A DNA stretch of 55,390 nucleotides. It comes from Neglectibacter sp. X58. GTDB taxonomy: Bacteria; Bacillota; Clostridia; Oscillospirales; Acutalibacteraceae. Shown here piece by piece: positions 10,436 to 25,814 of the stretch (positions are counted from its first letter, which is position 1; every line of letters starts with the position of its first letter). The position numbers and the translations under genes were made by a program. The notes under the pieces are model-generated. The model saw only the letters and a list, made by a program, of their open reading frames with translations. It had not been told where the DNA came from and did not search any database. Where the stretch lies: NCBI RefSeq assembly GCF_009936035.1, contig NZ_QWEO01000015.1, positions 1 through 55,390 on the forward strand. The letters run 5' to 3'.

Positions 10436-10496
10436 CCGGTATCGTTCCTTTCTTTGTATTTTTCACGCGAATGCCCTTCCTCGGTTTTTCGGTCAG

Positions 10497-10608
10497 CCAT
10501 TCCCTTGGGGAATGGTTACCTTTCTTTTAAAAAGGCTTGCAGGGGTGCGGGGGTGAGCGTCTGCCAGTGGCAGACAAGATGCGAACCGACCGAGCCGGCA
10601 GGCGAGAC
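10497..10608 (-). repeat. Dispersed structured repeat, copy 1
   Basis: Shares order and sequence with 25699-25814: an ATTCCC/GGGAAT hairpin (10497-10515), a T-rich stem CCTTT/AAAGG, GGGGGTGAGCG, a perfect 7-bp hairpin GTCTGCC-AGT-GGCAGAC (10559-10575), and a conserved GACCGAGCCGGCAGGCGAGA end. It lies 12 bases beyond the stop codon of the minus-strand gene at 10621. Stems differ between copies by paired changes, so structure seems to be kept. Possibly a 3'-UTR element or terminator; mobility is not shown. Confidence 0.75.
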
Positions 10609-10620
10609 AGCCCCGAGGTC

Positions 10621-11532
10621 TTACACGTTCACAATTTTCTCCCCGTCAAAAATCAGGATCCCCAGCCCCTCCCCGGTGGTGCCGCCGGAAAGCAGGTGCT
10701 GCTTAAAGGCCCGGCGCATGGAGGTGTCCTCTGGAAGATCTGCGGCAGGCAGGGTGTGCTGAGGCCCGAACACCCGCCAGGCGTCTCCGAATTCCTCTGC
10801 GTCCGCCTTGATGATGTCAAAATCAGACTGGAAATCTACGATATTGGAGCCGGGCTTCAGGATTTTCTTATACTCCGGGTACAGCAGCCAGGAATGGCAC
10901 ACGCACAAAAGCGGCCCCCCTCCCAGCTCTTCCTTGAAAAAGGCATAGGCCTGCCGGTAGGAGTCCATCCGGGCCTCCCTGTTAAACGGCTCGCCGCTGG
11001 AGGGGATGTGGATGCTTTTCACCTTGTCCCCGGGGCGCAGGGAAAAGCCGTTTTTCTCATAGGCAGGGCCGTCGTAGGCGCGGTTTTCATACTCCAGCCG
11101 GCCCAGCTTCACAATGTCGCAGGAATAGAAAATGGGATACCAGAAGGCCACAAAGGTGCCCCACACATCGTGGTTTTCCTTGCACTCCAATGCCTTATAG
11201 CGCAAGTCGGAGAAGGTGGCCCAGAAAATGTCCTCGCCCACGCCCTTCTTTTCATAGTCCCCTTTGGCACGCCTGGCCCCCTGCATGAGGAAAAGCATCC
11301 AAACGGTATAAGGGCTTAAAGCTGCCTTTTCCGCCATGGCGTCAATGGCGGGCTGGGCATCCTTTGTGGAAAAGCCGTTCTGGTAAAAAGCGTCCAGGGC
11401 CTCTAAAAGGGCCGGGGCCTGCCCCTTGTCCTCCATTGCCCGGGCGCTTTCCAGCAGGCTTGCCTTGGCTTCCTGGGGAAAGCCGGTTTTGTCCATAAGC
11501 AGCGCCATAAAATCCAAATCCAAGTTTTTCAC
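10621..11532 (-). CDS. GNAT-like acyltransferase-domain protein (DUF5596 type)
   Basis: 303 residues starting at GTG 11532, with GGGAGGT six bases upstream. The N-terminal half is helical. The C-terminal half contains I-H-I-P-S-S-G, C-V-C-H-S-W-L-L-Y-P and a final G-L-G-I-L-I-F-D-G-E segment. I recognise it as the clostridial family now described as having an N-acyltransferase N domain and a GNAT-like C domain; biochemical role unknown. It follows dtd by 21 bases, so the two are co-transcribed. Copy 1 of the dispersed repeat forms its 3' end. Confidence 0.65.
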   Translation of the reverse strand: MKNLDLDFMALLMDKTGFPQEAKASLLESARAMEDKGQAPALLEALDAFYQNGFSTKDAQPAIDAMAEKAALSPYTVWMLFLMQGARRAKGDYEKKGVGEDIFWATFSDLRYKALECKENHDVWGTFVAFWYPIFYSCDIVKLGRLEYENRAYDGPAYEKNGFSLRPGDKVKSIHIPSSGEPFNREARMDSYRQAYAFFKEELGGGPLLCVCHSWLLYPEYKKILKPGSNIVDFQSDFDIIKADAEEFGDAWRVFGPQHTLPAADLPEDTSMRRAFKQHLLSGGTTGEGLGILIFDGEKIVNV

Positions 11533-11553
11533 GCAAGTACCTCCCGAAAAGTT

Positions 11554-12006
11554 TTATTTTCCTATTTTCTCTGTGTCGATGATGATATTCACCGGCCCGT
11601 CGTTTTCCACCAGCACGTGCATGTGCTCCCCGAATTCCCCGGTTTCCACCCGCACCCCCAAAGCCCGGGCCTTTTCCACCACCCGCTCATACAGGGCCTT
11701 TGCCAGCTCCGGCGGGGCCGCCATGTCGAAGGAGGGCCTGCGCCCCCGCTTGCAGTCTGTGCCCAGGGTGAAGTTTGACACCACCAGCAGCTCCCCGCCT
11801 ACGTCCAGCAGGGAACGGTTCATCTTGTCCGCCTCGTCTTTGAAAATCCGCAGCCCGCAGATTTTCTCTGCCAGGAAGTCTGCCTGGGACTCCCCGTCCC
11901 CCTGCAGCACCCCCAGAAAGGCTACAAGGCCCTCCCCGATGCTCCGGGGGCTTAGGCCCTCCACTGTGAGGACTGCCCGGTTTACCCGCTGCAATACAAC
12001 CCGCAT
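11554..12006 (-). CDS. dtd: D-aminoacyl-tRNA deacylase
   Basis: 150 residues, standard length. Hydrolyses D-amino acids wrongly attached to tRNA. It opens M-R-V-V-L-Q-R-V. The active-site strand reads S-N-F-T-L (S-Q-F-T-L is commoner), followed by R-R-P-S-F, and the second motif is G-P-V-N-I-I-I-D. ATG 12006 has AAGGGGG upstream. First gene of a two-gene operon with the GNAT-like protein. Confidence 0.93.
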   Translation of the reverse strand: MRVVLQRVNRAVLTVEGLSPRSIGEGLVAFLGVLQGDGESQADFLAEKICGLRIFKDEADKMNRSLLDVGGELLVVSNFTLGTDCKRGRRPSFDMAAPPELAKALYERVVEKARALGVRVETGEFGEHMHVLVENDGPVNIIIDTEKIGK

Positions 12007-12189
12007 ATTTATCCCCCTTTTTTGCTCCCGGCTGCCCGGGAAAAATCCCCCGCTGGTTTCTGGATTTTTGCCGCTTGTTGTCAAGGGACAATCCTGTTAC
12101 AGGTGTGACAATTTGTTTACAAAACAGCAGGTTTTTGCTTTATTTTACCAGTTTTAACACTTTGTTCACAATTGGTTTTGCAAGAAACC

Positions 12190-12215
12190 CAGCCCCGTCC
12201 TGCAAAATGGGGCTG
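12190..12215 (-). terminator. Weak terminator after tsaD
   Basis: CAGCCCC and GGGGCTG (12190-12215) form a 7-bp stem 12 bases beyond the tsaD stop. On the minus strand it is followed by GGTTTCTT rather than a clean T-run. The rest of the 220-base gap to dtd is A+T-rich and presumably holds the dtd promoter, including a CCTGTTACAGG palindrome at 12093-12103. Confidence 0.45.
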
Positions 12216-12226
12216 TCCCAAAGGCC

Positions 12227-13249
12227 TTACGGCTGTCCCGCCGGAAAGTCTATGGGCATGTTGGGGGAGGCGTTCAGGTCAGATCCCGCCCGGTTCCCCG
12301 CCAGATATTCATAGTAGCCCTGGCTGGCTATCATGGCCGCGTTGTCCCCGCACAGGGGCAGGGCAGGCAGGTACAGCTCCCGGCCGGATTTCCCGCACAG
12401 GGACTCAAGCTCCCGCCGCAGCAGGCGGTTGGCAGACACCCCGCCAGCCACAGCCAGCTTCTTCATGCCCGTCTGCTCTGCCGCCTTCATAAAGGCTGTT
12501 GTCAGGCTGGCCACCACCGCCTGCCTGTAACTGGCGCACAGATCCGGGATACTGACTTCCTCCCCTTTCTGTTTGGCGTTGTGCAGCAGGTTCAGCACCG
12601 CTGTTTTCAACCCGGAAAAGCTGTAGTCCAGGGGCGCGCCCGCCACATGGGGCTGGGGAAGCTTATAGGCCTGGGGGTTGCCCCCCTCCGCGATTTTATC
12701 CAGCTCCACCCCGCCAGGGTATGGGATGCCCATGGCCCGGGCCGCCTTGTCGAAAGCCTCTCCTGCCGCGTCGTCCCGGGTGCGGCCCAGCACCCGCAGG
12801 CGGGTGTAATCCTCCACCGCCACAATGTGGGAGTGGCCTCCTGACACCACCAGGCACAGGAAGGGGGGCGTAAGGCCGGGGCTTGTGAGGTAATTGGAGG
12901 CCACATGGCCCCGCAGGTGGTGTACCGGGACAAGGGGCAGCCCGGCGGAAATGGCCAGCCCCTTGGCGAAATTCACCCCCACCAGCAGTGCCCCAATAAG
13001 CCCCGGGGCGCAGGTGACGGCTATGCCGTCTATCTGGGAAAGCTGCTTCCCGCTTTGGGACAAGGCCTCCTGCACCACCCCTGTGATGGCTTCGCTGTGC
13101 AGCCGCGAGGCGATTTCCGGCACCACGCCGCCGAACACCCGGTGCCGCTCAATCTGGGAGGCCACCACCGAGGAAAGTATCTGCCTGCCGTCCTCCACTA
13201 CAGCGGCGGCAGTCTCGTCGCAAGAGCTTTCAATGCCTAAAAGAATCAT
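12227..13249 (-). CDS. tsaD: tRNA N6-threonylcarbamoyladenosine transferase
   Basis: 340 residues. Transfers the threonylcarbamoyl group to A37 of ANN-decoding tRNAs, with TsaB and TsaE elsewhere. It opens I-L-L-G-I-E-S-S-C-D-E-T-A, carries the metal-binding H-H-L-R-G-H, and has V-V-S-G-G-H-S-H. ATG 13249 follows GGGAGGC and lies 5 bases from the rimI stop. This rimI-tsaD order is common in Firmicutes, usually with tsaB and tsaE beside it; here an arginine phosphatase gene takes the upstream place. Confidence 0.96.
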   Translation of the reverse strand: MILLGIESSCDETAAAVVEDGRQILSSVVASQIERHRVFGGVVPEIASRLHSEAITGVVQEALSQSGKQLSQIDGIAVTCAPGLIGALLVGVNFAKGLAISAGLPLVPVHHLRGHVASNYLTSPGLTPPFLCLVVSGGHSHIVAVEDYTRLRVLGRTRDDAAGEAFDKAARAMGIPYPGGVELDKIAEGGNPQAYKLPQPHVAGAPLDYSFSGLKTAVLNLLHNAKQKGEEVSIPDLCASYRQAVVASLTTAFMKAAEQTGMKKLAVAGGVSANRLLRRELESLCGKSGRELYLPALPLCGDNAAMIASQGYYEYLAGNRAGSDLNASPNMPIDFPAGQP

Positions 13250-13253
13250 ATGC

Positions 13254-13706
13254 CTATGCCTCCCCTGTTAAATCCAACTGCAAAAGCAGGGCGTCCTCTG
13301 CCGGGCGGGTGTAAAAGTTCTTCCGCCTGCCCGTCTCCCGGAAGCCCAGCCCTGTGTATAAGGCGATGGCGGCGGCGTTGGAGGGACGCACCTCCAGGGT
13401 GAGGAAGCTGCCCTTTTGGGCAAGGGCGAAGTCCCGCAGGGCCAGCAGGATGGCCCGGGCCGCGCCTTTGTGCCTGTGCTGGGGGAAAACTGCCAGATTG
13501 TCCAGGTAAAACTCCCCGCAGGCAAAGTGCATTCCCCCATAGCCCAAAACTTCCCCGCCCTCTGCTGCCGTCAGGAAACAGGCGTTGGGGTTGGAAAGCT
13601 CCTCTCCCAGGGATTCCTGGCTCCAGGGTTCTGAAAAGCACAGGGCTTCCAAGGCCGCCAAAGCTTCCAAGTCTCCCTTTTCCATAGGGCGCACCTCCAG
13701 GCTCAT
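13254..13706 (-). CDS. rimI: Ribosomal-protein-alanine N-acetyltransferase RimI
   Basis: 150-residue GNAT fold. The acetyl-CoA pyrophosphate loop is Q-H-R-H-K-G-A-A, after the L-D-N-L-A-V-F-P strand. The C-terminal A-I-A-L-Y-T-G-L-G-F motif is typical of RimI. The start codon overlaps the stop of the upstream phosphatase gene (ATGA, 13703-13706), implying translational coupling. Substrate is inferred from the tsaD neighbourhood. Confidence 0.88.
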   Translation of the reverse strand: MSLEVRPMEKGDLEALAALEALCFSEPWSQESLGEELSNPNACFLTAAEGGEVLGYGGMHFACGEFYLDNLAVFPQHRHKGAARAILLALRDFALAQKGSFLTLEVRPSNAAAIALYTGLGFRETGRRKNFYTRPAEDALLLQLDLTGEA

Positions 13707-14149
13707 GGCCTGTCCTCTATCCAAGGGGCAAGCTTGCCCCAGAACTTTTGCAGCTCGTCCCGCAGCTTGTCCCGGCACTGGCGGTAAACCTGCAGATCCT
13801 GCCCAAAGGGATCGGCAATAAAGCCGGGGACGTATATCCGCTCCGGCAGCGCCCCGGCCTGCTCTAAAATGTACCCGTGGGTTTTGGACATGGTGAAGAA
13901 CACGTCCCATATGGGGATCTCCTCCCCGGAAACCCGCCGGGCCTTGTGGCCGGAAATGTCTATTCCCAGCTCTTGGCAGGCCAGCACCGCGTTTTCCGCC
14001 GCAGGTTCCCCCTCCACCGCGGAAAGCCCCGCGCTCTGGCACAGTACATGCCCCTTTGTGCCGGACTGCTCTGCCATCTGCCGGAACAGCCCTTCCGCCA
14101 TAGGGCTGCGGCAGGTGTTGCCTGTGCATACGAATAAGATTTTTATCAT
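13703..14149 (-). CDS. Low-molecular-weight phosphatase, YwlE (protein arginine phosphatase) type
   Basis: 148 residues with the C-X5-R loop right at the N-terminus (V-C-T-G-N-T-C-R-S-P) and the general acid in D-P-F-G. In Bacillus YwlE the Thr of this loop and the Phe after the general-acid Asp go with phospho-arginine specificity, where tyrosine phosphatases have Ile and Tyr; both YwlE-type residues are present here. It is therefore more likely an arginine phosphatase than a tyrosine phosphatase (inference from residues). First gene of the phosphatase-rimI-tsaD operon; an extended -10 motif lies upstream at 14296-14306. Confidence 0.85.
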   Translation of the reverse strand: MIKILFVCTGNTCRSPMAEGLFRQMAEQSGTKGHVLCQSAGLSAVEGEPAAENAVLACQELGIDISGHKARRVSGEEIPIWDVFFTMSKTHGYILEQAGALPERIYVPGFIADPFGQDLQVYRQCRDKLRDELQKFWGKLAPWIEDRP

Positions 14150-14295
14150 GCCGCTTTGTTTCCTTTATTCAGCCTTGTTTTTTACGTGCTTCCTGCTGTA
14201 TGCGCACAGCGCGTTGGTATATGCCTGTCACCCGTCTGACCGGAGGAAAGAACCGGGCGGGGCAATTTTATAATCAAATATAATAGCTTACAGCT

Positions 14296-14404
14296 ATTAT
14301 ACCATAACCTTATCCGGAGTTCCCGATACCCCTGCGAAGCAGGGGGCGAGCGCTGTGCGCGAGAGGGATACTCCCAAGTGTTCGTCAGAACACATTATAC
14401 CATA
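14296..14404 (-). other. Four-hairpin element between duplicated extended -10 motifs
   Basis: The 11-base word ATTATACCATA occurs at 14296-14306 and 14394-14404; on the minus strand it reads TATGGTATAAT, an extended -10 promoter. Between the copies lie four short hairpins in 65 bases: CCCCTGC/GCAGGGG (14329-14345), GCGC/GCGC (14350-14360), GGGA/TCCC (14365-14375) and GTGTTC/GAACAC (14378-14393). Downstream of the proximal motif is a 9-bp hairpin at 14280-14300. It could be a small RNA or leader upstream of the phosphatase operon. Confidence 0.5.
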
Positions 14405-14450
14405 TCCAGCCATGCATTTCCATATCCTCTTAAAAATTAAGACAGAAAGA

Positions 14451-14490
14451 GCCGCCTGCCAGGCTTCGTCCCGGCAGGCGGCTTTGCTCT
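14451..14490. terminator. Strong hairpin terminator
   Basis: GCCGCCTGCC (14451-14460) pairs perfectly with GGCAGGCGGC (14473-14482). It is followed on the plus strand by TTTGCTCT and on the minus strand by TCTTTCTGTC. It lies between the MITE and the four-hairpin element and may end the minus-strand transcript of the isomerase gene at 14762. Confidence 0.65.
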
Positions 14491-14536
14491 GAAATTACAG
14501 ATAAATGCCTGTGGTGCGCAATTGGTTTTACTGCTG

Positions 14537-14765
14537 TTAAGGCAATACCGCTTAAGGCGGAAGCGGGGAATTGTGCGGTGCTGCCTTAAGGCAACACCGC
14601 ACAATTCACGACTACCGTCTTAAGCGGCATCTCGCGGGCCATTTTTCCGTCATAGCACACAAAGCCTGCTTGCCAAGCGCCAGCTTGCCTGCGCAGCCTT
14701 TATGCCCTCTGACGAAAAAATCTCTTCCGCGATATACCTCTTAGAATTATGCGGTATTGCCTTAA
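14537..14765. mobile_element. TTAA-ended MITE-like element, 229 bp
   Basis: Perfect 15-base terminal inverted repeats TTAAGGCAATACCGC at 14537-14551 and (inverted) 14751-14765. Inside is a nearly perfect 38-base palindrome (14569-14606) with 12-bp arms AATTGTGCGGTG around CTGCCTTAAGGCAA, which echoes the terminal sequence. No transposase is encoded. The right end overlaps the last codons of the minus-strand isomerase gene and supplies its TAA stop (14762-14764). TTAA at both tips could be the target duplication or part of the repeat. I recall similar sequences scattered in clostridial genomes but could not search. Confidence 0.72.
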
Positions 14766-15637
14766 GGCTTTTCGCACTGGTCTGCCAGGAAGCGCCCGGT
14801 TTTATAGAGCAGGGCAAGGGCGTCGGGCACCAAAGGCAGGGGGAATTTTTCCAGGAAGTGATCTGCCTCCAGGGTGAAGTCCCCTTCATAGCCTATTTCC
14901 TTCAGGGCTGTGACCAGGGCGGAGAAATCTATCTTGCAGGTGAAGGGCATGGTGTGGGAGTCCTCCAGGAAATCGTTGTCGTGGACATGGAGGGCCTGCA
15001 GGCGCTTCGGCCCCATGGCCCGGATAAAGCCGCCTAAGTCCTCGTCTGTCAGGGCAGTGTGGCCCACGTCCAGGCACCCCACTATCCAGGGGCTGTCTGC
15101 CTGGTCGATATAGGCGCAGAACTCCTGGGGCCGGGAGCAGGCGCTGTCGATAATGCGGTTTGCCACAGGGTTTTCCTGCCACATGTTTTCGCAGGCTGCT
15201 TTGACGCCGAATTTTTCGCAGTAAGGCACAAGGCGTTTGTAAAATTCCTCGTTCATTTTTTGCAGCTCTGCCGCGTGGGTGATATAGGGCAGGTGGTGCT
15301 TGGGGTGTACCACAATCACCTTGGCCCCCAGGATGGAAGCGGCCTCCATAGAGCGCACAATGGCCTTAAAGCGGCGGTCGTCGTCCTCGGGGTCGCCGGT
15401 GGAGGAGGCGAAGGGGGCGTGGGCCTGGTTGCAGGCAATGCCGGCTTCCTCCGCCACAGCCCGGAGGGACTGGGCATATTCCCGGAAGTCCGGACCGTTT
15501 ATGGGGTACTCGGGGTTTTCAAACATGGGGAAAAAGCTGAAGTCATAGGCGTCAAAGCCTGCCTTTGCCAGCATGCGGATGGCTTCTGCCTCGCCATAGG
15601 CGCGGCCCAGGAAATCGGTTTGCGTGGATAATATCAT
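14762..15637 (-). CDS. Sugar phosphate isomerase/epimerase family protein
   Basis: 291-residue TIM barrel with V-I-V-H-P-K-H-H, A-C-E-N-M, G-C-L-D-V-G-H and L-H-V-H-D-N-D segments carrying the metal-site and catalytic acids of the xylose-isomerase-like superfamily. ATG 15637 is taken because the barrel begins at once; the preceding AAGGGA is a modest ribosome site. The protein ends C-E-K-P at a stop inside the MITE at 14537-14765, so the original C-terminus may have been slightly different. Substrate unknown. Confidence 0.85.
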   Translation of the reverse strand: MILSTQTDFLGRAYGEAEAIRMLAKAGFDAYDFSFFPMFENPEYPINGPDFREYAQSLRAVAEEAGIACNQAHAPFASSTGDPEDDDRRFKAIVRSMEAASILGAKVIVVHPKHHLPYITHAAELQKMNEEFYKRLVPYCEKFGVKAACENMWQENPVANRIIDSACSRPQEFCAYIDQADSPWIVGCLDVGHTALTDEDLGGFIRAMGPKRLQALHVHDNDFLEDSHTMPFTCKIDFSALVTALKEIGYEGDFTLEADHFLEKFPLPLVPDALALLYKTGRFLADQCEKP

Positions 15638-15695
15638 GGCTGAATCCCTTCTTTCATCATACATGTGTATCGTGGTTTTTGGGGCGGGGGCCGCT

Positions 15696-16307
15696 TTATT
15701 CTGGCTCTATCTCCATGGCCCGGCGGATGTCGGTGTAAGCGTATCCCAGCCGCTGGAGGGCGGCAAAGGCCCGGCGGCGCACCTTTTCGTCCTCCTGCCA
15801 GCCGGGATATTTTTTAAAGAGCAGTGCCTGCATGTTCTCCAGGGCCGCGTCCTCGTCTGCATATTCCGCCAGAAGCTCCCCTATCAGCTCTGGGTCTATG
15901 CCCTTTTGGCGCAATTCCTGCTTTACCCGCATAACGCCGTACCGCTTGCGGGTGAAAAGCTCCTGGGCGTAGCGGCGGGCGTATTCCTCGTCATTTAAAA
16001 GCCCCAGTTCCTCCATGCGGTCTGCGGCGGCCTCTGCGGCCTCTCGGCTGGCGGCGGTGCGGGCAATTTTTTCCGTCAGCTCTTTTTTAGAGTGCGCCCG
16101 GTGCTCCAGCAGGTACAGGGCCTTTTCCCTGGCCCTGTGGGCATCGGAAGCCTGTATCAACTGGTGAAGCTCTTCGTCGTCCAGCTCATCCCCTAGGCGC
16201 AGGCCGGATCGCAGGAAGGTTTCCGTATCCACTTTTACGGCCTGCTCTCCGTCTATGTAAAGCTGGGTCAGGCGGTGGCGGCGGGGTTCTGCTGCTGTCA
16301 ATTCCAT
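15696..16307 (-). CDS. recX: Recombination regulator RecX
   Basis: 203 residues built of three-helix repeats. Visible signatures are A-L-Y-L-L-E-H-R-A-H-S-K-K-E-L, then L-G-L-L-N-D-E-E-Y-A-R-R, R-Y-G-V-M-R-V-K-Q-E-L-R-Q-K-G and a final R-A-F-A-A-L-Q-R-L-G-Y. RecX binds RecA filaments and limits their growth. The ATG overlaps the recA stop by one base (TGATG), so it is translationally coupled to recA. Confidence 0.93.
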   Translation of the reverse strand: MELTAAEPRRHRLTQLYIDGEQAVKVDTETFLRSGLRLGDELDDEELHQLIQASDAHRAREKALYLLEHRAHSKKELTEKIARTAASREAAEAAADRMEELGLLNDEEYARRYAQELFTRKRYGVMRVKQELRQKGIDPELIGELLAEYADEDAALENMQALLFKKYPGWQEDEKVRRRAFAALQRLGYAYTDIRRAMEIEPE

Positions 16308-17479
16308 CAGTCGTCCACCGTAATGTCAATGCTGGGCTTTTTCGGGGCGCTTTTAGCGGCGGGGGCCGGAGGTGGCGCTTCCAGGGCAGGGGCTTCCGGC
16401 AGCGCCACCGGCTTCACGCCGCCCTTTGCAGGGCCGTTGTCGTACAGCTTGCTGACATTTTCCCGCACCAGCTTTTCAATTTCCGCCGACACCTCCGGAT
16501 GGGTTGCCAGGTAGTCCTTGGACTTGTCCCGGCCCTGGCCGATGCGCTCCCCGTTATAGGAGAACCAGGCCCCGCTTTTCTGGACGATTTCAAGCTGTAC
16601 GGCAATATCCAAAAGCTCCCCTGTGCGGGAAATGCCTGTACCGTACATGACATCGAACTCCGCTGTGCGGAAGGGCGGGGCGATTTTATTCTTGACCACT
16701 TTCACCTTTGTCCTGGCGCCAATCATGTCTGTGCCGTTTTTAATGACCTCGCCTTTGCGCACCTCCACCCGCACAGAGGCATAGAATTTCAGCGCCCTGC
16801 CGCCAGGGGTGACCTCCGGGTTGCCGTACACCACGCCTACCTTTTCCCGGAGCTGGTTAATGAAGATAGCTACGCAGTTTGATTTGGAGATGGCGCCTGC
16901 CAGCTTGCGCAGGGCCTGGCTCATAAGCCGGGCCTGGAGGCCCACATGGGTGTCGCCCATGTCCCCCTCGATTTCCGCCCGGGGCACCAGAGCCGCCACA
17001 GAGTCCACCACAATCACGTCGATGGCATTGGAGCGCACCAGGGCTTCCGTAATCTCCAGGGCCTGCTCCCCGGTGTCCGGCTGGGACACCAGCAGGCTTT
17101 CCACGTCCACCCCCAGGTGCCCGGCATAGACAGGATCCAAGGCGTGCTCCACGTCAATGAAAGCGGCGTTGCCTCCCATTTTCTGGCCCTCGGCAATGCA
17201 GTGCAGGGCCAGGGTGGTTTTGCCAGAGGACTCTGGCCCGTACATCTCGATGATGCGCCCTCTGGGCAGGCCGCCTATCCCCAGGGCCAAATCCAGGGAC
17301 AGGGAACCGGTGGGGATGGCCTCCACGTTCAGTTCGCTGTCCTGGCCCAGGCGCATGACAGCCCCTTCCCCAAACTGCTTCTTAATTTGGGCCAGGGCTG
17401 TTTCCAGGGCCTTGGCCTTTTCCTCCGGCTTTACGTCAGAGGCCCGGGTGCTGATGGGCGCCTGCTTTTTTTCTGCCAT
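16307..17479 (-). CDS. recA: Recombinase A
   Basis: 390 residues. Forms ATP-dependent filaments on single-stranded DNA for homologous recombination and SOS induction. P-loop G-P-E-S-S-G-K-T-T, Walker B region [10 protein letters not shown], and L2-region landmarks F-I-N-Q-L-R-E-K and T-P-G-G-R-A-L-K are all present. The C-terminus is a Pro/Ala-rich stretch ending in the acidic T-V-D-D. ATG 17479 is chosen because M-A-E-K-K is the family start; the longer frame would run through the promoter. Confidence 0.97.
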
Positions 17480-17516
17480 ATGCGTAAACACTCCTCTGTC
17501 TTGATTTCTACTGCTG

Positions 17517-17545
17517 ATTATACTCCATATTCCCTCCAAAAGCAA
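17517..17545 (-). promoter_or_regulatory. recA promoter
   Basis: Minus strand: TTGCTT (17545-17540), a 17-base spacer, TATAAT (17522-17517), followed by a leader of about 30 bases with GAGGAG. Confidence 0.75.
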
Positions 17546-17564
17546 TGTGTTTCCGGAAAATTCA

Positions 17565-17578
17565 CGAACAAATGTTTT
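17565..17578. promoter_or_regulatory. Probable LexA (SOS) box upstream of recA
   Basis: CGAACAAATGTTTT matches the Gram-positive LexA consensus CGAACATATGTTCG at 11 of 14 positions, keeping the GAAC and GTT half-sites with four bases between. It lies 20 bases upstream of the -35 element, so repression would need contact from upstream or looping. Confidence 0.6.
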
Positions 17579-17682
17579 AAGCAGAAGCCCTCCTGCCCCT
17601 TGGACGGCAATATGGGGCAAAATGAAAAGGCCAAGAGGAATGCCCTCCCGGCCCTTCTTTGCTGAAACGGATTTCCCGCTTT

Positions 17683-18789: not shown

Positions 18790-18840
18790 AATTTGCTCCT
18801 CCTGTAGGGATGGGTATCGCGTACCCGTATTCTCAGGGAA

Positions 18841-18888
18841 ATTATACCATATCTGCCTTGACTTTTATTGTGTCATATGGCACAATAA
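18841..18888. promoter_or_regulatory. Divergent promoters with a Crp-type operator
   Basis: A 24-base near-perfect palindrome at 18865-18888 has arms TTATTGTG and CACAATAA, i.e. TGTG-N8-CACA as in Crp sites. Minus strand: extended -10 TATGGTATAAT at 18851-18841 without a good -35; the operator centre is about 42 bases upstream of the expected start, the class II activator position. Plus strand: TTGACT (18858-18863), a 17-base spacer, CACAAT; the operator fills this spacer, so binding should block the regulator's own promoter. Binding itself is inferred. Confidence 0.72.
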
Positions 18889-18941
18889 GAAAAAATTTAC
18901 CGGGCTGTGCAAAAATATATAGGGAAAGGGACGGCGGGCAT

Positions 18942-19562
18942 ATGGAACAAATCCGGGATAAGGCTTTGCTGGAACGGCTGATGGAGGAAAAAGGTATAGG
19001 GGGGTTCTTTTCCGGAAGCCCCCAGGGGTTCCGGCTGGTGGGCTACAAAAAGCACGAGCTGCTGGCAGCCCCCGACCGCCCGCTGAAAGACTTCCTCTTT
19101 ATTTTGGAAGGCTCTGTGCGGGTATACGGCCTGCGGGAGGACGGCGGGGATTATTCCGTGGCCCAGGGCGCGGAGCAGGATATGCTGGGCATGATGGAGT
19201 TTGTGCGGGAAAGCCAGCCTGCCCTCTATACGGAGGCCCTGGAGGACACCCTTTGCATAGCGCTGCCCATAGAAAAAAACAGGGCTGTCCTGGAAAAGGA
19301 CAGCCTGTTCCTGCGGCGCCTGCTGGAGTATTCTGTGCGGCTGGTTATGCTGTCCGCTATGGCGGGGCGCCCGGGGCAGCGCCTGGCGGAGAAGGTGGTG
19401 GCCTTTCTCCGGGACGTCCAGCCGGATCACACCCTGCACAGCATTAACGCGGGGCTTTTGCAGTTCCGCTGCAGCCGCAGGCAGCTTCAGCGGGTGGTGA
19501 GAAAGCTGTGCGAGGACGGGGTTTTAAAGAAGGTGGGGAAGGGGAAATATCAACTGCGGTAA
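18942..19562 (+). CDS. Crp/Fnr family transcriptional regulator
   Basis: 206 residues: an N-terminal cyclic-nucleotide-binding-like barrel (about residues 20-125, with D-F-L-F-I-L-E-G-S-V-R-V-Y), a long helix, and a C-terminal winged helix-turn-helix with recognition helix C-S-R-R-Q-L-Q-R-V-V. Two of the three Crp DNA-contact positions (Arg180 and Arg185 by alignment) are kept, while Glu181 is Arg. The effector is not obvious; the cAMP-binding R-S of Crp was not seen. ATG 18942 fits the domain start better than 18810, which would read through the operator. Likely regulates the divergent oxidoreductase gene and itself. Confidence 0.87.
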   Translation: MEQIRDKALLERLMEEKGIGGFFSGSPQGFRLVGYKKHELLAAPDRPLKDFLFILEGSVRVYGLREDGGDYSVAQGAEQDMLGMMEFVRESQPALYTEALEDTLCIALPIEKNRAVLEKDSLFLRRLLEYSVRLVMLSAMAGRPGQRLAEKVVAFLRDVQPDHTLHSINAGLLQFRCSRRQLQRVVRKLCEDGVLKKVGKGKYQLR

Positions 19563-19609
19563 GCGCTTCCGCCGCGGAGGGAAACGCCTCTGAAGGGGGA
19601 AGGCTGCGC

Positions 19610-20179
19610 TTACAGCAGCCCGGCCTTCTTTTCGATGAAGCAGGCGGCCACGTCTACCGCCTGGGAGCTGTCCAGGGTGCCGTTTACCACCAGATCCGCG
19701 TGCCAGCGGGTAGGCTCGATAAGCTCGTTGTGCCGAAAGCGCACAGTGTCCAGATACCGCTCTGTTACCTCCTCAAAGGTCTGGCCCCAGGCCATGAACC
19801 GGATAATCCGGCGGGCCAGGCGCTCGTCGCTGGGAAGATCTACGAAAATTTTCAAGTCTGCCCGCTCCCGGATATCGTCCAGGTACAGGGCAAAAAGGCC
19901 CTCCGCCAGCACAAGCTGGGCATCGCTGCCCTCGGCCGTAAGGCGGGTGAAGTCCTCATACATGCGGGGCAGCTCCAGGGTGTCGGGATGGTTGTGCTCC
20001 ACATACTCCTTGCGGGTGATGGGGGCAATGGTATGGGGCGGCTCCTTTTTGAAATAGGAATCCATGTGGAAGGCCACTGTTTTGCACCTGGGGGAAAAGA
20101 CAGCCTCCAGGCGGTCTGTCAAGGTAGACTTGCCGCTGCAGGTGCCCCCGGCAATAGCCACAACATAGGGCTTGCTCAT
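19610..20179 (-). CDS. Uridine kinase family protein
   Basis: 189 residues with P-loop A-G-G-T-C-S-G-K-S-T and the D-S-Y-F motif of the uridine kinase/phosphoribulokinase family. Phosphorylates uridine or cytidine in pyrimidine salvage, or a related small substrate; slightly shorter than typical Udk. ATG 20179 has AGAGG 11 bases upstream. Last gene of the long minus-strand operon beginning with the phosphoribosyltransferase, and convergent with the Crp-type regulator. Confidence 0.8.
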   Translation of the reverse strand: MSKPYVVAIAGGTCSGKSTLTDRLEAVFSPRCKTVAFHMDSYFKKEPPHTIAPITRKEYVEHNHPDTLELPRMYEDFTRLTAEGSDAQLVLAEGLFALYLDDIRERADLKIFVDLPSDERLARRIIRFMAWGQTFEEVTERYLDTVRFRHNELIEPTRWHADLVVNGTLDSSQAVDVAACFIEKKAGLL

Positions 20180-20219
20180 CGCAATACATTCCTCTCTTTT
20201 GAAAATGGGCAAATTCCCC

Positions 20220-20750
20220 TTATCGGGGCGGCTGTGCCTCCTCCCGCAAAAGGGAGAAGATCATGTCGTCAAAGATTTCTCCCCTGGGTGTGGCCACGGC
20301 CCGGCGCAGGGTGCCCTCATGGGTGAAGCCCAGCTTTTGCAGCAGCCGGGCAGAAGGCCTGTTTTCGGAAAAAACCCGGGCGGCAAGCACCTGCGCCCCC
20401 ATCTCCTGAAAGATATAGGGGATGAGGGCGGAAAGGGCTTCGGTCATATAGCCTTTGCCGGCGGCGGATTCCGCCAGATAATAGGACAGGGTGAAGGAGG
20501 CAAGGCCATAGCGCAGATCGTCCGGCTCCAGCCATACCCCTCCCAAAAGGGCGGAGGATCCCTTTTCCTCTATGTAAAAGGTGCGCTGGGCCTTTATTTC
20601 CTCCTCCACCTGCTTTTCCATCCGGGGCAGCTCCCAGGGCTTCATGGGGTTATACCGCAGCACATAAGGGCTGTTGCGGATTTCCAGCATGGCAGGAGCG
20701 TCTGCCATCTCCGGCCCGCGCAGGATAAGGCGCTCTGTTTCAATGGGCAT
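20220..20750 (-). CDS. GNAT N-acetyltransferase, RimJ/RimL type
   Basis: 176 residues opening I-E-T-E-R-L-I-L-R-G-P. The acetyl-CoA loop is S-A-A-G-K-G-Y-M-T-E-A and the C-terminal motif N-R-P-S-A-R-L-L-Q-K-L-G-F, both diagnostic of the RimJ/RimL group that acetylates protein N-termini or small molecules. ATG 20750 has AAGGAGGG upstream. It sits 12 bases after the DivIVA-like gene. Confidence 0.87.
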   Translation of the reverse strand: MPIETERLILRGPEMADAPAMLEIRNSPYVLRYNPMKPWELPRMEKQVEEEIKAQRTFYIEEKGSSALLGGVWLEPDDLRYGLASFTLSYYLAESAAGKGYMTEALSALIPYIFQEMGAQVLAARVFSENRPSARLLQKLGFTHEGTLRRAVATPRGEIFDDMIFSLLREEAQPPR

Positions 20751-20762
20751 AAGCTTCCCTCC

Positions 20763-21125
20763 TTACAGCAGCCTGTCGGAGCCCATGGAGCGCGCCTGAT
20801 CCAGCACCTGCCGGGCGTCCTGCTCTATTGCCCGCCTGAACTGCTCCCGGAACTGCTTTAAAGCCTTCACGTCCTCTAAAAGCCGGGCCTGCTCCCGTTC
20901 CAGCTCGTAATCGTGGCGGTGCTCCAACTGGCTTTTTTCCGCCCGCACCGTGCGGATTTCGCTTTTTAACCCCCGCACCTCCTGGCGCAGCCGGGCCACC
21001 TCGGCCTGGGCCTGCTCCACGCTTTCCGCCAGCTCCTCCAAAAACTCGTCCACCTGGTCGGCATTGTACCAGCGGCCTTTTGTCTCAAACTTTACGTCGT
21101 CCAGCACCTGTCTAGTCAGCTCCAT
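20763..21125 (-). CDS. DivIVA-domain protein, 120 aa
   Basis: Starts with the DivIVA lipid-binding/coiled-coil signature F-E-T-K-G-R-W-Y-N-A-D-Q-V-D-E-F-L and continues as one charged coiled coil to about residue 110. Such proteins mark poles or septa, or act as small scaffolds. It is much shorter than true DivIVA, so a GpsB-like adaptor role is as likely. Overlaps the upstream gene by 14 bases. Confidence 0.82.
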   Translation of the reverse strand: MELTRQVLDDVKFETKGRWYNADQVDEFLEELAESVEQAQAEVARLRQEVRGLKSEIRTVRAEKSQLEHRHDYELEREQARLLEDVKALKQFREQFRRAIEQDARQVLDQARSMGSDRLL

Positions 21126-21750
21126 CTTCCGCGTCCTCCTTCTCCCCTGCGGCCAGCGTCTTCCGGGCCAGCCGGGTAAATTCCTCCCGCCCGTACAGGG
21201 CGTTTACTGCCTGCAGCAGGCCGTTTGCCGAAAGCCGCTCCGGCAGGCCCAGCTTCTTTTGCAGTGCCCGGCGCCTTTCCCCGCTGTCCGGGGCGCCGCT
21301 TAGGGCTAAATCGTAAAAATCACCTTTGGTTACAGGCCCCTCCTTCCCAGAGGGGCTTTCCTGTTCCTCCCCGGCAATGTGCGCCCCTGCCCGCAGCAGG
21401 GCTTCCCGCAGCACCGGCAGGGGCAGGCCCTCCACCCCCAGCTTGCCCTCCCTGGAGGGCTTTGCCTTGCGGCGCTCCTTGCCGTACACGTCGGGGATAT
21501 AGGCATGCTTTATCTGCTCTGGGGGGATGCAGGCGGAAAGCTTGGAGCGGATGAGGAACCCGGCCCCGTCGCTGTCTGTGAGCACGATAAGCCCCCGCTC
21601 CCGGGCCATCCGGCGCAAAAGGGCCAGCCGCTCTTTGTCCTGGAAAATGCCGAAGCCCCTTGTCTCTATAATAACTCCTTCCACCAGGGAAGAAAGGCGG
21701 CTTTTGTCATACCGGCCCTCCACCACGATGGCCTCCCGCACCCGCATCAT
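21112..21750 (-). CDS. Toprim-domain protein with DUF4093 (RNase M5-like)
   Basis: 212 residues. The N-terminal toprim domain is visible as I-V-V-E-G-R-Y-D-K (catalytic Glu) and L-T-D-S-D-G-A-G (Asp pair), as in 5S-rRNA maturase RNase M5. The C-terminal part matches the clostridial DUF4093 extension. Probably a nuclease for 5S rRNA maturation, although the C-terminal domain differs from B. subtilis RnmV. The start ATGATG overlaps the holA stop; either Met is possible. Confidence 0.78.
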   Translation of the reverse strand: MMRVREAIVVEGRYDKSRLSSLVEGVIIETRGFGIFQDKERLALLRRMARERGLIVLTDSDGAGFLIRSKLSACIPPEQIKHAYIPDVYGKERRKAKPSREGKLGVEGLPLPVLREALLRAGAHIAGEEQESPSGKEGPVTKGDFYDLALSGAPDSGERRRALQKKLGLPERLSANGLLQAVNALYGREEFTRLARKTLAAGEKEDAEDGAD

Positions 21751-22805
21751 CTGTCCGCCCCCTGGGTGCAGCACAGCAGCAGCCGGGCAATAAGCCCGTC
21801 TAACACCAGCCTGTCCTGGAGCCGGGAGCTTTTTAAGGAAAGGTCCGCCTCCAGCAGCAGGGAAAGGCACTGGCAGAGGGTGGGGCCGCTGATGCGCCGC
21901 AGGTTTTTCTGGGCCCGGCGCAGGCGGAAGTCTTTGCCCTTATAGTCCCCGTAAGCGAGGGGGGCGTCTGCCTGCAGGCCGCTGTCCAAAGCGCCCTGCA
22001 CCCGGTACATGTCCACATAGGCAGAGGCCATGGCCCCCAGAATCATGGTGGGCTTTTCCTTTTGGGCGAAAAGGTTTTCCAAAAGGCTGTATGCCTGCTG
22101 GTAATTCCCTTCCACCAAAGCATCCACCATAAGGAACACTGTGATTTCCGTGCTTTTGGGCACCAGGCGCTCTATGGCGGCGGGAGTTATCTCTGTTTCC
22201 CCCATGCCTAGGGTGTAGGCGCAGAGCTTTTCCATTTCCCCCAGCAGCCGGTTCATATCCTGGCCCCCATAGTCCAGCAGCAGCCGGAGGGATTTGGGGG
22301 GCAGGGTGCAGCCTGCCTTTTTTGCCTGCCTTGCAAGCTCCCCCCGCAGTTCTTCGGGGGATCGCCTGCCCAGCAGCAGCACGCTGCCGCATTTTTCCGC
22401 TTTCTTTAAAAAGCTGTTCCAGCGCGGGGCCTGCCTGCCGCCAGGGGAGAGGGTGGGAAACCACAACACCAGGGTGGTGGTTTCCGGCAGGGCTTCCATC
22501 AATTCATAAAGCTTGTCCAGTTCCCGCTGATCCCGCCCGAACAGATCGAAATCCCGCACAGCCACGCACTTGTGTTCTGCCATAAAAGGCAGAGCCACGC
22601 AGGCGTCGCACAGGGCGTCTATATCGCAGCCGCTGTCCAGCTCGTTCCGGTTAAACTCGGGAAAGGCTTCCCCCGCCGCCTGGGTGATAAGCTTTTGGGC
22701 GGCCTTTCGCACCATGTGCTTTTCCTCTCCCGCCACCACGTACAGGGAGGAAAGGCCGCCCTCCTCCAACTGCCGCTTTGCTTCCGCTTCCGTTATCCGG
22801 GCCAC
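21747..22805 (-). CDS. holA: DNA polymerase III subunit delta
   Basis: 352 residues. The delta subunit of the clamp loader opens the beta ring. Typical features are the N-terminal L-Y-V-V-A-G-E-E motif, A-V-R-D-F-D-L-F in the first domain, and the C-terminal helical collar. Start codon GTG 22805, with AGGGAGGG eight bases upstream, directly after the comEC stop (TAAGGTG). This comEC-holA order is common in Firmicutes. Confidence 0.92.
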   Translation of the reverse strand: MARITEAEAKRQLEEGGLSSLYVVAGEEKHMVRKAAQKLITQAAGEAFPEFNRNELDSGCDIDALCDACVALPFMAEHKCVAVRDFDLFGRDQRELDKLYELMEALPETTTLVLWFPTLSPGGRQAPRWNSFLKKAEKCGSVLLLGRRSPEELRGELARQAKKAGCTLPPKSLRLLLDYGGQDMNRLLGEMEKLCAYTLGMGETEITPAAIERLVPKSTEITVFLMVDALVEGNYQQAYSLLENLFAQKEKPTMILGAMASAYVDMYRVQGALDSGLQADAPLAYGDYKGKDFRLRRAQKNLRRISGPTLCQCLSLLLEADLSLKSSRLQDRLVLDGLIARLLLCCTQGADR

Positions 22806-22806
22806 C

Positions 22807-24984
22807 TTAGCTTCCCTCCCTCACCGTCACTTCGCCCTGGGGGCTTACCGCCAGCCCCAGGCCATCCTCCCGCCTGGGCAGAAGGTATGTCCCTGGCGTT
22901 TCATCTATTATATCACCTGACAGCACAACAGTAAATCCCGAATTTTCCCTGGGGAGGCAGTGTATCCGCAGGCCGTCTGTTTGAAACTCTGCCTGAAAGG
23001 CCGCGCCGTTTACCGTAAAGCCCAGATAAGTGCCCAGGGGGCTGTACCGGATTTCTGTTCCCGGCAGGGCCTGATAGGCGCTGCCGGAAGGCAGGAACGT
23101 GACGGTTCCCGAAAGCTCCCGGCCAGCGTAAGCCCCCTCTGGCAGAAGGGTTTCCCCCACCGGGAAGGACTCCAGGATTTTCCTGGCGCTGCGCTTTTCC
23201 CGGCTGTCCGCTTTTGGCAGAAACAGGCTGGAAACCTCCCGGACGTTATTGCGCCGCAGAAGGCTTACGCAGTCCCCGGCCCTGCCGCCGGGACACAGCA
23301 CAGCGGCTTTGCCGTCCTGTATGAAAGCGGCGCAGGCGGTTTCCCCTTCCCCCTGCACTGCCAGAACCGCAAAGCCTTGCCCGCTGTACAGGGAAAAGCC
23401 ATAGGTTCCCAGGATGAAGGCCAGCAGAATCCCCGCCCCTGCCCGACGGCAAAGGGGCGTAAGCTTTGGGAAGGACAGAAAGGCCAGCAGGCACAGCACG
23501 CCTAAAAGGGCCAGCATTTCCGCCTGTCCCAGATGGATATAGACACCCGGCTGGCTTCCCAAAGCTTTGGCTATGCTTCTTGCAAGCCGGCTGAGCCATC
23601 CCGCCCACAGGGCAAAGGGCTGCGCCAAAGGCCCCAATCCTGGCAGCAGGGAAAACAGGAGCGCAAACAGGGCGCAGTACAATAGCAGGGTGCAGGGGAG
23701 GGACAGGAGCAGATTCGCCAGGGGAGACAGCAGGGCAAGCCCCCGGAACACGCAGATCTGCCAGGGGGCAGTGCCTGCCAGAGCGGCAAAGGTGACCCCC
23801 AGCACCCCGGCGGCAGGGGTGAAAAACCCTTTAAGCCGGGGGCGCTTCCCGAAGGGGCGCAGGAGGGCTTTGGTTATCCCCAGGGCCAGCACCAGGATGC
23901 CCAGGGTGGCGAAAACGGAAAGGGCCAGGCTTAGATCCCCGCCGGAAAAGGGATTTTGCAGGCAGATGACCACCAGGGCCAGCCCCAGGGAATTCAGGCC
24001 GTCGGCCCTGCGGCCCAGGCACCCGCCCAGCAGATAGGCGGCATACATCACATAGGCCCGCACAGCCGAAGGGGGAAAGCCAATCAGGCACAGGTATAAA
24101 AGCAAAACGCCTGCTGTGAGGAGGCTTTGGGGCAGGCGCTTTAAGCGGGTTTTCCGCAGCAATACCTGGATAAGCCCTGCCACTGCCCCCATGTGCAGGC
24201 CCGAAACCACCATCAGGTGGGAGCAGCCTGCCAGCCGGAAGCTTTCATTGGCATCCTCCGGCAGGCCGTCCCGCCTGCCTAACAGCATGGCCTGCAAAAG
24301 GGCCGCGTCCTCCTGGGGCAGCAGCCGGGCAAATTCCCGGGAAAGCCCGCGCCGGAATACAGCCAGGGCCTTTCCTGGCGGGTTCCCTTCGCAGGGGATG
24401 CGCCTGGCCCCGCCTCCGGCAAGGTAGCCTCCTAACTGATAGCCGTCTGCTAAAAGGCTGTTCCGCTGGGAATAAAGCCCGCCCTCTGGAAAGGTGGAAA
24501 AGGATACGGGGCACTCCACCCGGTCGTATGGCGAACAATACAGGGGGCTGGCGGCGGAAAGCCGCAGGATAAAGGGCTTTACCGGCATTTTGTCTATCTG
24601 CTCCACCCGCAGGCGGTAATAATACCGGGAATAGCGCTTTTCCGGATAATCCAGCACCAGGGCTTGTATGTCCGCCTTTTTCTCCGCCCACTGCTTTGAG
24701 GGCAGCGTCTGGCTTTCATACCGGGACAAAAACAGGGACAGGCCCAAGGCCGCCAGCAGGAACGCGCACGCGAAAAAGGGCGCCCGTTCCCCGAGCGCCC
24801 CTGCGGGCAGCGAAAGCCTCGGGGCAGCCTGCCTCTTTGCCGCCCAAAAGCCCAGAAGCCCGGCGCAAAGCCCCAGCCCCAGGCAGATCCACAGCAGCGC
24901 CCCGGCGGCCTTTGGCCCGCTCAGGGCCGCCAGCGCCAGCGCGCCATAAACGGAAAAGCCCCACAGGGCAAAGGGCCTGCCCAC
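22807..24984 (-). CDS. comEC: ComEC/Rec2 competence channel with degenerate hydrolase domain
   Basis: 725 residues. The N-terminus has membrane helices and an OB-like DUF4131 domain. The central competence domain (about residues 215-470) carries H-L-M-V-V-S-G-L-H-M-G and many membrane helices. ComEC is the inner-membrane channel for DNA uptake. The C-terminal 190 residues are where a metallo-beta-lactamase nuclease domain normally lies, but D-V-G-Q-G-D-A is replaced by V-Q-G-E-G-E-T and no H-X-H-X-D-H is present, so this domain looks inactive. GTG 24984 has only a weak ribosome site. Confidence 0.9.
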   Translation of the reverse strand: MGRPFALWGFSVYGALALAALSGPKAAGALLWICLGLGLCAGLLGFWAAKRQAAPRLSLPAGALGERAPFFACAFLLAALGLSLFLSRYESQTLPSKQWAEKKADIQALVLDYPEKRYSRYYYRLRVEQIDKMPVKPFILRLSAASPLYCSPYDRVECPVSFSTFPEGGLYSQRNSLLADGYQLGGYLAGGGARRIPCEGNPPGKALAVFRRGLSREFARLLPQEDAALLQAMLLGRRDGLPEDANESFRLAGCSHLMVVSGLHMGAVAGLIQVLLRKTRLKRLPQSLLTAGVLLLYLCLIGFPPSAVRAYVMYAAYLLGGCLGRRADGLNSLGLALVVICLQNPFSGGDLSLALSVFATLGILVLALGITKALLRPFGKRPRLKGFFTPAAGVLGVTFAALAGTAPWQICVFRGLALLSPLANLLLSLPCTLLLYCALFALLFSLLPGLGPLAQPFALWAGWLSRLARSIAKALGSQPGVYIHLGQAEMLALLGVLCLLAFLSFPKLTPLCRRAGAGILLAFILGTYGFSLYSGQGFAVLAVQGEGETACAAFIQDGKAAVLCPGGRAGDCVSLLRRNNVREVSSLFLPKADSREKRSARKILESFPVGETLLPEGAYAGRELSGTVTFLPSGSAYQALPGTEIRYSPLGTYLGFTVNGAAFQAEFQTDGLRIHCLPRENSGFTVVLSGDIIDETPGTYLLPRREDGLGLAVSPQGEVTVREGS

Positions 24985-24987
24985 GGA

Positions 24988-25527
24988 TTATTTGAAGAAC
25001 AGGGGCAGAGGCTCCAGGAAGATGATGTCCTCCCTGTCCTTGGCGTCGCCCTCAGCCAGCACGCAGGCCTTGCCCACCACCTGCCCGCCAATGGTGTGGA
25101 GCAGCTCCTCCATGGCGGCAAGGGACTCCCCGGTGGAAATTACATCGTCCACAATGAGGATGCGCCTGCCCTTTAAATTCTCGCAGTCTGCCTTGGAGAG
25201 GTACAGCTTCTGCACGTGGTCGGTGGTGATGGACTTCACCTCCACGTGGATGGGATCCTCCATATAGGCCTTCACGCCCTTGCGGGCCACCACATAATTG
25301 CGGCAGCCAATGCGGGCCATCTCATAGGCCAGGGGGATGCCCTTGGACTCTGCCGTGACGATAACATCATGGGCCGGGCACTTTTTCAGCAGCTCCGCTG
25401 CCGTCCGCTCGGTGATTTCCACGTCGCTGAACATGACAAACCCCGCTATGTCCAGCTTCTCGTCGATAGGGCAGATAGGCAGCGACCGCTTGCAGCCTGC
25501 TATCTCCATGTCGTATGTTTTGCTCAT
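24988..25527 (-). CDS. Purine-type phosphoribosyltransferase
   Basis: 179 residues. The PRPP-binding loop I-L-I-V-D-D-V-I-S-T-G-E-S is clear. The N-terminal half contains V-I-V-T-A-E-S-K-G-I-P, as in adenine or xanthine phosphoribosyltransferases. It salvages a free base to the nucleotide; adenine is the best guess. ATG 25527 has AAAGGATG upstream. First gene of the operon phosphoribosyltransferase-comEC-holA-DUF4093-divIVA-GNAT-uridine kinase. Confidence 0.85.
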   Translation of the reverse strand: MSKTYDMEIAGCKRSLPICPIDEKLDIAGFVMFSDVEITERTAAELLKKCPAHDVIVTAESKGIPLAYEMARIGCRNYVVARKGVKAYMEDPIHVEVKSITTDHVQKLYLSKADCENLKGRRILIVDDVISTGESLAAMEELLHTIGGQVVGKACVLAEGDAKDREDIIFLEPLPLFFK

Positions 25528-25576
25528 TTCCCATACATCCTTTCTTTATTTGGACGGGCTGCCGCCCGTACCTGCT

Positions 25577-25606
25577 TTAAGGGGCTTTTTGAAAAAAGCC
25601 CCTTAA
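25577..25606 (-). terminator. Hairpin downstream of the ClpE-like gene
   Basis: TTAAGGGGCTTTTT (25577-25590) pairs with AAAAAAGCCCCTTAA (25592-25606), a nearly perfect 14-bp stem. It separates the ClpE-like gene and copy 2 of the dispersed repeat from the phosphoribosyltransferase operon. Confidence 0.65.
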
Positions 25607-25698
25607 AAATCCGCAAAAACTTTCACTCTCTCCCTGTCAGAAGCCCCTGGGAAGGAAGCGCCCAAAACCAATAATTTATAAAATTAGTTTTTGGATCA

Positions 25699-25814
25699 AA
25701 ACATTCCCAAAGGGAATGTTTGCCCTTCTTTGAAAAAAGGGTTGTGGGGTTCTCAGGGGGTGAGCGTGTGCCAGTGGCACACATGTGCGGACCGACCGAG
25801 CCGGCAGGCGAGAC
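25699..25814 (-). repeat. Dispersed structured repeat, copy 2
   Basis: Same design as 10497-10608: a 10-bp AAACATTCCC/GGGAATGTTT hairpin (25699-25721), a CCCTT/AAGGG stem, GGGGGTGAGCG, hairpin GTGTGCC-AGT-GGCACAC (25766-25782) and GACCGAGCCGGCAGGCGAGA. The third stem pair of the second hairpin is G-C here and C-G in copy 1. It lies 57 bases beyond the stop of the minus-strand ClpE-like gene. Confidence 0.75.

Follow-up and report, generated by a model that had tools for sequence, protein, structure and literature searches.

The window analysed here is a stretch of 55,390 nucleotides from Neglectibacter sp. X58 (contig NZ_QWEO01000015.1), and it carries two copies of a short hairpin repeat, referred to below as the core, each beside a minus-strand open reading frame (ORF). 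The first of these ORFs (10621-11532) matches NAT_N/GNAT_C, and the second (25872-28223) matches ClpB-type AAA domains. A sequence-only reading of the window had described an ordered set of parts, running from an ATTCCC hairpin to a constant end, in the two segments 10497-10608 and 25699-25814, and inspection of the sequence places all of these parts in both. What had been drawn as one repeat is, however, two independent repeats: the core, 53-54 nt long in the window copies, and a T-module, which comprises the ATTCCC hairpin and the T-rich stem. Of the origins that had been proposed, a mobile repeat is the one now backed by filled and empty sites, by interruption of RNA genes and an ORF, and by nesting, and the core is almost certainly a mobile element. 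Most likely it belongs to a known kind, the small non-autonomous hairpin mobile element, in a form for which the literature searched gave no description.

In order, the core consists of the stem P1, the hairpin P2, an optional P3, the sequence GACCGA, the hairpin P4 and a closing GAGA. Its recurrence is not due to chance, since a BLASTN search with copy 1 hit 37 places in the window genome at E<=1, and a 14-mer from the constant part, allowing one mismatch, occurs there 30 times and its reversed control 4 times. The covariance-model search that the sequence-only reading had called for recovered 36 matches in the window genome (model R1, E<=0.1) and many in its relatives, with the pairing kept.

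Filled and empty sites

The ends of the core are sharply defined in the relative genome G013, which holds 131 core matches at E<=1e-6 in near-identical subfamilies. A host hairpin of this genome, CAGCTCCCCTTTCAGGGGAGCC(AAG), is empty in 73 genome matches with at most two mismatches, 36 of them exact. Among the loci examined, the hairpin is empty in 26 copies (23 from G013) and filled in 17, and the 17 filled G013 hairpins contain exactly 53 nt (13 copies) or 69 nt (4 copies) between GGGG and AGCC. The inserts start with TGAGC and finish with GAGA, and neither a target duplication nor the loss of a base accompanies them. The script that found these sites required AGCC on the right; when this requirement was dropped, 17 of the 110 G013 cores examined had CCCCTTTCAGGGG on their left, and AGCC followed in 16 of the 17, the sole exception being a nested composite with 70 nt. 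Some filled copies may be copies of one composite, and independent insertion is supported because the identical unit also occurs in other contexts and on the opposite strand of the host hairpin (L285, L287, L288, L297 and L304, read by eye). The very abundant G013 host hairpin, GTGACAGCTCCCCTTTCAGGGGAGCCAAGGG, is itself an interspersed repeat (L305, L306, L331 and others; 73 matches with at most two mismatches to its middle). Of 39 type-A copies, many of which share one host, 38 have GG at the end of the left flank. Copies also lie inside P2 of other copies, inverted copies are found in the GACCGA region, and 53-nt tandem arrays of the core look like the product of slippage.

The core interrupts genes as well. 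In the window genome, a 53-nt core (L201/L013, contig C125, ~77171-77226) splits a parA-like ORF whose two pieces lie in one frame: the upstream piece, which matches AAA_31, ends with DVDPQG, the insert opens with an in-frame stop, and the short downstream piece, which has no match, starts with PLTASLGF. In L061 (JAUNJS010000075.1), the core interrupts a tRNA gene, and ARAGORN calls tRNA-Glu(TTC) across the joint when 51-52 nt are omitted; with other omitted lengths the calls are tRNA-SeC or anticodons that cannot be read, and the position of the joint is therefore approximate. This contig is rich in tRNAs, and two more core-like copies (7344 and 7847, minus strand) stand beside tRNA-like sequence; at 52-247 and 1162-1286, ARAGORN reports a tRNA-Asn and a tRNA-Cys with intron-like insertions of 102 nt and 32 nt. 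On the minus strand of L098 (1-174), the core occupies a loop of a Clostridiales-1 RNA (RF01699), where 60 nt take the place of the 8 in the model, and in L221 and L124 cores sit in partial tRNA-Pro-like sequence, which in L221 adjoins an intact tRNA-Pro(CGG).

Table 1. Parts of the two core copies and of the enclosing T-modules in the window.
Feature	Position	Strand	Basis
Core copy 1, mobile unit TGAGC...GCGAGA, 54 nt	10554..10607	+	Covariance-model match 10552-10608, E 4.4e-13; ends by analogy with the filled and empty sites of G013
G-run left of copy 1, probable target, outer P1 pairs	10549..10553	+	Sequence; RNA fold, in which CCGACC pairs with part of the run
P2 hairpin of copy 1, GTCTGCC-AGT-GGCAGAC	10559..10575	+	Sequence, alignment, RNA fold
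P4 hairpin of copy 1, GCC-GGCA-GGC, between GACCGA and GAGA	10594..10603	+	Alignment, P4 pair counts, RNA fold
T-module (ATTCCC hairpin, T-rich stem, G-rich hairpin) enclosing core copy 1; separate family	10485..10624, ends approximate	+	
Core copy 2, mobile unit TGAGC...GCGAGA, 53 nt	25761..25813	+	Covariance-model match 25759-25814, E 3.6e-12
G-run left of copy 2, probable target	25756..25760	+	Sequence; RNA fold
P2 hairpin of copy 2, GTGTGCC-AGT-GGCACAC	25766..25782	+	Sequence, alignment, RNA fold
P4 hairpin of copy 2, GCC-GGCA-GGC	25800..25809	+	Alignment, P4 pair counts, RNA fold
T-module enclosing core copy 2	25685..25856, ends approximate	+	Intergenic region much shorter in relative G006

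Architecture and compensatory change

The paired change that had been noticed in P2, GTCTGCC/GGCAGAC in copy 1 and GTGTGCC/GGCACAC in copy 2, is indeed present, and the conserved structure that it pointed to extends through a large family. Alongside mobility, sharp ends, expansion in copy number and nesting, this family displays compensatory changes that keep P1, P2 and P4 paired. In the aligned copies, P1 comprises three outer pairs, a middle part of two positions with either Watson-Crick pairing or tandem G.A/A.G, and 0-2 inner pairs (in copy 2 of the window, a G.G replaces one G.A pair), and P2 is a variable stem with a CC-RGT-GG tip. Rows for alignment were taken by a script that required a hairpin of at least 5 bp round a CCNGNGG-like tip; 111 distinct copies passed, 80 remained after thinning, and 65 of these were chosen by hand to form alignment A1. 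In A1, P2 and P4 cells are paired in 99.4%, against 36-49% when the partners are slid, and because the script required a hairpin, the pairing of P2 is partly selected.

Pairing in P1 was no criterion in the choice of copies. At least five consecutive P1 pairs, with the middle G.A allowed, are formed in 103 of the 111 distinct copies (swapped arms: mean 63.6, maximum 73), and with standard pairs only in 71 (mean 31.8, maximum 41). The corresponding counts are 74 against 44.6 and 49 against 20.3 in the 80 thinned rows, and 55 against 33.8 and 34 against 12.4 in a hand-picked set of 60 rows. The three positions of P4 are paired in 217, 215 and 218 of the 219 distinct copies with the P4 frame, among which G-C is replaced by A-T (17), C-G by G-C (11) and C-G by T-A (9). 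The apparent constancy of the GGCA loop is partly due to the search pattern, as P4 loops reading GAA, GGA and TCCCG were also found by eye. In P2, G.T cells are as rare as A.C cells (9 and 10 of 960), a pattern more in keeping with a DNA hairpin or cruciform than with a constraint on RNA only.

When the plus strand of the window copies is folded as RNA, the fold contains P2 and P4 together with a P1 whose internal loop is GA/GA, and in both copies the upstream GG is paired with the conserved GACC, so that the target bases are drawn into the helix of the element; the z-scores of the two folds are modest (-2.6 and -0.7). Two further structural proposals were rejected. An outer stem, P0, of at least 8 is found in 24 of 131 copies against 14.4% of swapped pairs, a weak excess that does not make it a universal feature. 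A larger autonomous element split at P3 was sought among the 22 of 201 CC[AG]GTGG hairpins that lacked a 3' half by pattern, and none was shown to be such: by eye, 12 are cores with a variant P4 or nested inserts, 2 are ended by the edge of the sequence, and 8 are unrelated.

Copy number and distribution

In a genus sample of 19 genomes (the window genome included), 17 have matches, from 1 to at least 142 each, with high counts being lower bounds since at most 150 candidates were scored per genome; two genomes of the same genus, 95 and 99% complete, have none. Matches occur in 2 of 11 other genomes of an order sample, in 10 of 118 genomes of a class sample (own included), where the distribution is patchy, and in 2 of 249 genomes of a phylum sample (own included, stricter filters). 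A scan of GTDB contigs for CGACCGAGYCGGCAGGCGAGA returned at least 116 stretches, and those listed come mainly from Ruminococcus, Acutalibacter and Lachnospiraceae records and from metagenome-assembled genomes of rumen and gut Clostridia, with one labelled Alistipes. The exact pattern is present in 6 viral contigs of IMG/VR, and a single plasmid query gave no match. In the Ruminococcus phages NatCom_23091 and NatCom_29429 (L351 and L352), an identical core copy lies inside an annotated hypothetical ORF; no empty phage site was resolved, as four further records match other parts of that phage locus only.

The core adds to gut and rumen Clostridia an abundant mobile repeat that is undescribed in the literature searched, which was covered without most subscription papers and without bioRxiv preprints. 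It lands in tRNA genes, other RNA genes and an ORF, and it stands at many draft-contig ends. Many rumen Ruminococcus contigs (L067, L068, L079, L080, L129, L140 and other RUG contigs) start or end within or beside it, and for this reason it probably fragments assemblies.

Gene context

Of 34 copies in the window genome, 31 overlap no gene called by a home-made caller, including the parA copy, whose ORF is broken. Both neighbours could be called without overlap for 30 copies, and these run against the core in 12 cases and with it in 11, and are divergent in 5 and convergent in 2. Because gene orientation is unbiased, a role as a 3' untranslated region (3'-UTR) element or terminator, which the sequence-only reading had considered, is unsupported; RNA genes and an ORF are interrupted, and the T-rich stem is part of the other repeat. 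On orientation and context, a riboswitch, a 3'-UTR element and a terminator were rejected. The distances of 12 and 57 bases that had been given from the segment ends to the stops of the two minus-strand ORFs are right, but with neighbour orientations even across the genome, this placement past the stops is a coincidence. Among ORFs that lie within 3 kb and code for 90 aa or more, no neighbour family except ABC-type ATPases recurs in at least four other loci, and a recurrent neighbour gene was rejected as the autonomous partner.

Proposed mechanism and alternatives

The core is best pictured as a non-autonomous mobile element of ~53-75 nt, with some copies longer, that inserts immediately 3' of a run of Gs (most often GGGG, with GG as the minimum) without target-site duplication and, at the clearest sites, without loss of a base. 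Its plus strand may fold as single-stranded DNA, its CCGACC would pair with the target Gs and so pick the site, and an enzyme supplied in trans, perhaps HUH-like by analogy with IS200/IS605 and REP/RAYT, would join the ends. With no target duplication and no core sequence common to both ends, neither DDE transposition nor conservative recombination of the tyrosine or serine type seems likely. We lean slightly towards a hairpin element of this sort, moved by a single-strand mechanism with CCGACC pairing and an enzyme in trans; for the single-strand DNA mechanism taken by itself, the evidence is evenly balanced. Because the target bases join the element's own helix, the core offers an unusually clean test case for structure-guided target choice, and it raises the question of which enzyme moves a 53-nt element without a linked gene.

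Several observations weigh against this mechanism. At GG^TC-like sites, namely the tRNA-Pro-like fragments (L221), inverted nested copies (L280/L322) and perhaps parA (L013), the insert is followed by C, or T is missing, in contrast to the clean GGGG^A sites. RNA and DNA folds have modest z-scores against shuffles (-0.7 to -2.7), and P1 is not always formed in DNA folding. A moving enzyme was sought among Y1_Tnp, reverse transcriptase (RT) and neighbour genes, and none was identified. Y1_Tnp (PF01797) does not track copy number, with no match in G007 (86 copies), G013, G005 and G008 and a match in G010, which has 0 copies; a Y1 transposase was therefore rejected as the partner. Sixteen Y1 loci were taken from 25 matches in two lists (one match stands in both), with ~1.5 kb per side where the contig allowed; model R1 finds the core in 1 of them, ~1.2 kb from a sub-cut-off Y1 match (L350), and no autonomous tnpA relative with the core's ends was seen in the 16. 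Replication-coupled single-strand transposition predicts an orientation bias, towards the lagging-strand template. Counted in draft genomes with unmapped replication origins, copies of the window genome are 17 positive, 15 negative and 2 zero relative to local GC skew and 17/17 relative to gene direction, and no clear bias is found in G013 either (8 of 16; 6 of 15).

An unlikely alternative is an RNA-mediated miniature element, a bacterial analogue of short interspersed nuclear elements (SINEs), whose transcript would be copied by a host or retron-like RT and inserted behind G-runs. The good folding of the plus strand as RNA and its tandem G.A pairs are consistent with such an element, as are related RT ORFs in G013 and G007, the two highest-copy genomes of the genus sample, and in G015 (51.7%, 42.1% and 40.2% identity); the description of these ORFs (L257, L258 and L270) as 'retron-like' is a reading by eye, without a classifier. 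However, the RT matches of G001 (85 copies) and G005 (43) yielded no recognisable ORF of this type in the loci examined, G008, G009, G011, G012, G014 and G016 have copies and no RT match, and G010 has 4 RT matches and no copies. Model R1 finds the core in just 2 of 20 RT loci, ~5.0 and 6.5 kb from the G013 and G007 RT ORFs, and G.T pairs are rare in P2. An RT was rejected as the partner, as its correlation with copy number is only partial. A further and rather doubtful possibility is a new class of miniature elements in which the target is picked by pairing its G-run to the element's own CCGACC, movement depends on a non-Y1 enzyme (possibly a retron-like RT acting on a SINE analogue), and evolution proceeds via repeated birth of subfamilies with new self-complementary stems. 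The strong compensatory variation and the location of 31 of 34 own copies outside called genes would also suit a functional cis- or trans-acting RNA kept for the host as a regulator, terminator or stability element. This explanation, already weakened, is improbable given the equal frequency of gene orientations, the two same-genus genomes with 0 copies, the lack of a recurrent neighbour family except ABC-type ATPases, the interruption of RNA genes, an ORF and other copies, and the clean filled and empty sites.

A REP/REPIN-type element mobilised by a RAYT (TnpA-REP) now lost, or encoded in missing parts of the draft genomes, is distinctly unlikely. Like REP and REPIN sequences, the core is a small, intergenic, multi-copy hairpin repeat, often clustered or nested, with conserved foot bases beside variable stems, and some host genomes carry Y1 transposases. 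In REP sequences, one palindrome of 20-40 bp carries an unpaired tag on one side; the core is longer and three-helical, with two unlike hairpins plus a closing stem, and it inserts behind G-runs. According to PMC3733652, a GTAG or CGTC tag at the hairpin foot defines two REP superfamilies, and the core has neither, showing GG, GACCGA and GAGA instead in alignments and flanks. No linked RAYT was found among the Y1 matches and loci examined, and Y1 is absent from near-complete high-copy genomes.

Relation to other known elements

Rfam gave no match in the window at gathering score, and in 18 relative loci it matched tRNAs and one Clostridiales-1 RNA only, the latter spanning the L098 core, which is itself unmatched. 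At a low threshold, the two window segments gave weak matches only, the best (E 0.018) being to a snoRNA family. Members of the IS200/IS605 family are not known to cause target duplication, and the core, as the filled and empty hairpins show, likewise inserts 3' of a short fixed sequence without one. According to PMC6006769, a guide inside IS200/IS605 elements selects the flanking target tetranucleotide by pairing. The ends of IS608 and ISDra2, and those of non-autonomous derivatives of this family, share with the core an insertion point 3' of a short specific sequence, subterminal hairpins and an internal guide. The putative guide of the core, however, lies 3' of a hairpin and closes P1, whereas theirs is immediately 5' of the hairpin foot; none of the 16 Y1 loci showed a Y1 gene with the core's ends, and no strand bias was seen.

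Among modular and miniature repeats, BOX is a bacterial modular repeat, and miniature inverted-repeat transposable elements (MITEs) show target duplication. RUP, NEMIS and ERIC are listed as MITEs in PMC3733652, and with these and BOX the core shares the character of a non-coding mobile repeat that folds and nests. Unlike a classical MITE moved by a DDE transposase, the core has neither terminal inverted repeats nor target-site duplication. The same source gives a GGGGWSAS motif for TIRYT-associated TIR repeats (PMC3733652). Many type-A copies have GGGGTGAG at their left, in agreement with this motif; the majority of the other core types do not match it, the GGGG is largely target, and the core was not found beside Y1 genes in the loci examined. 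A link to TIRYTs was rejected, as only type A fits.

The T-module, a separate repeat

The T-module follows the plan TTTTNGGATCAAA...AAAAGGGTTTGCRGGGTGTGGGG(CAAAG)CCCCRCGGCCTTA and is independent of the core. Its 25 matches in the 483 kb examined of the window genome comprise 12 with a core and 13 without, a split that is no frequency because the stretches were chosen round cores, and in which L210 and L215 (one on each side) are doubtful. The core mostly occupies the tip of the final hairpin of the module. The two have opposite orientations in L009, and other genera, read by eye, contain the core without the module. The intergenic region of copy 2 is ~317 bp shorter in the relative G006, which shows the absence of the whole composite and not the boundary of the core. 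In the window (10485-10624 and 25685-25856) and at other loci, the T-module ends in a hairpin of the GGGGC-AAA-GCCCC type.

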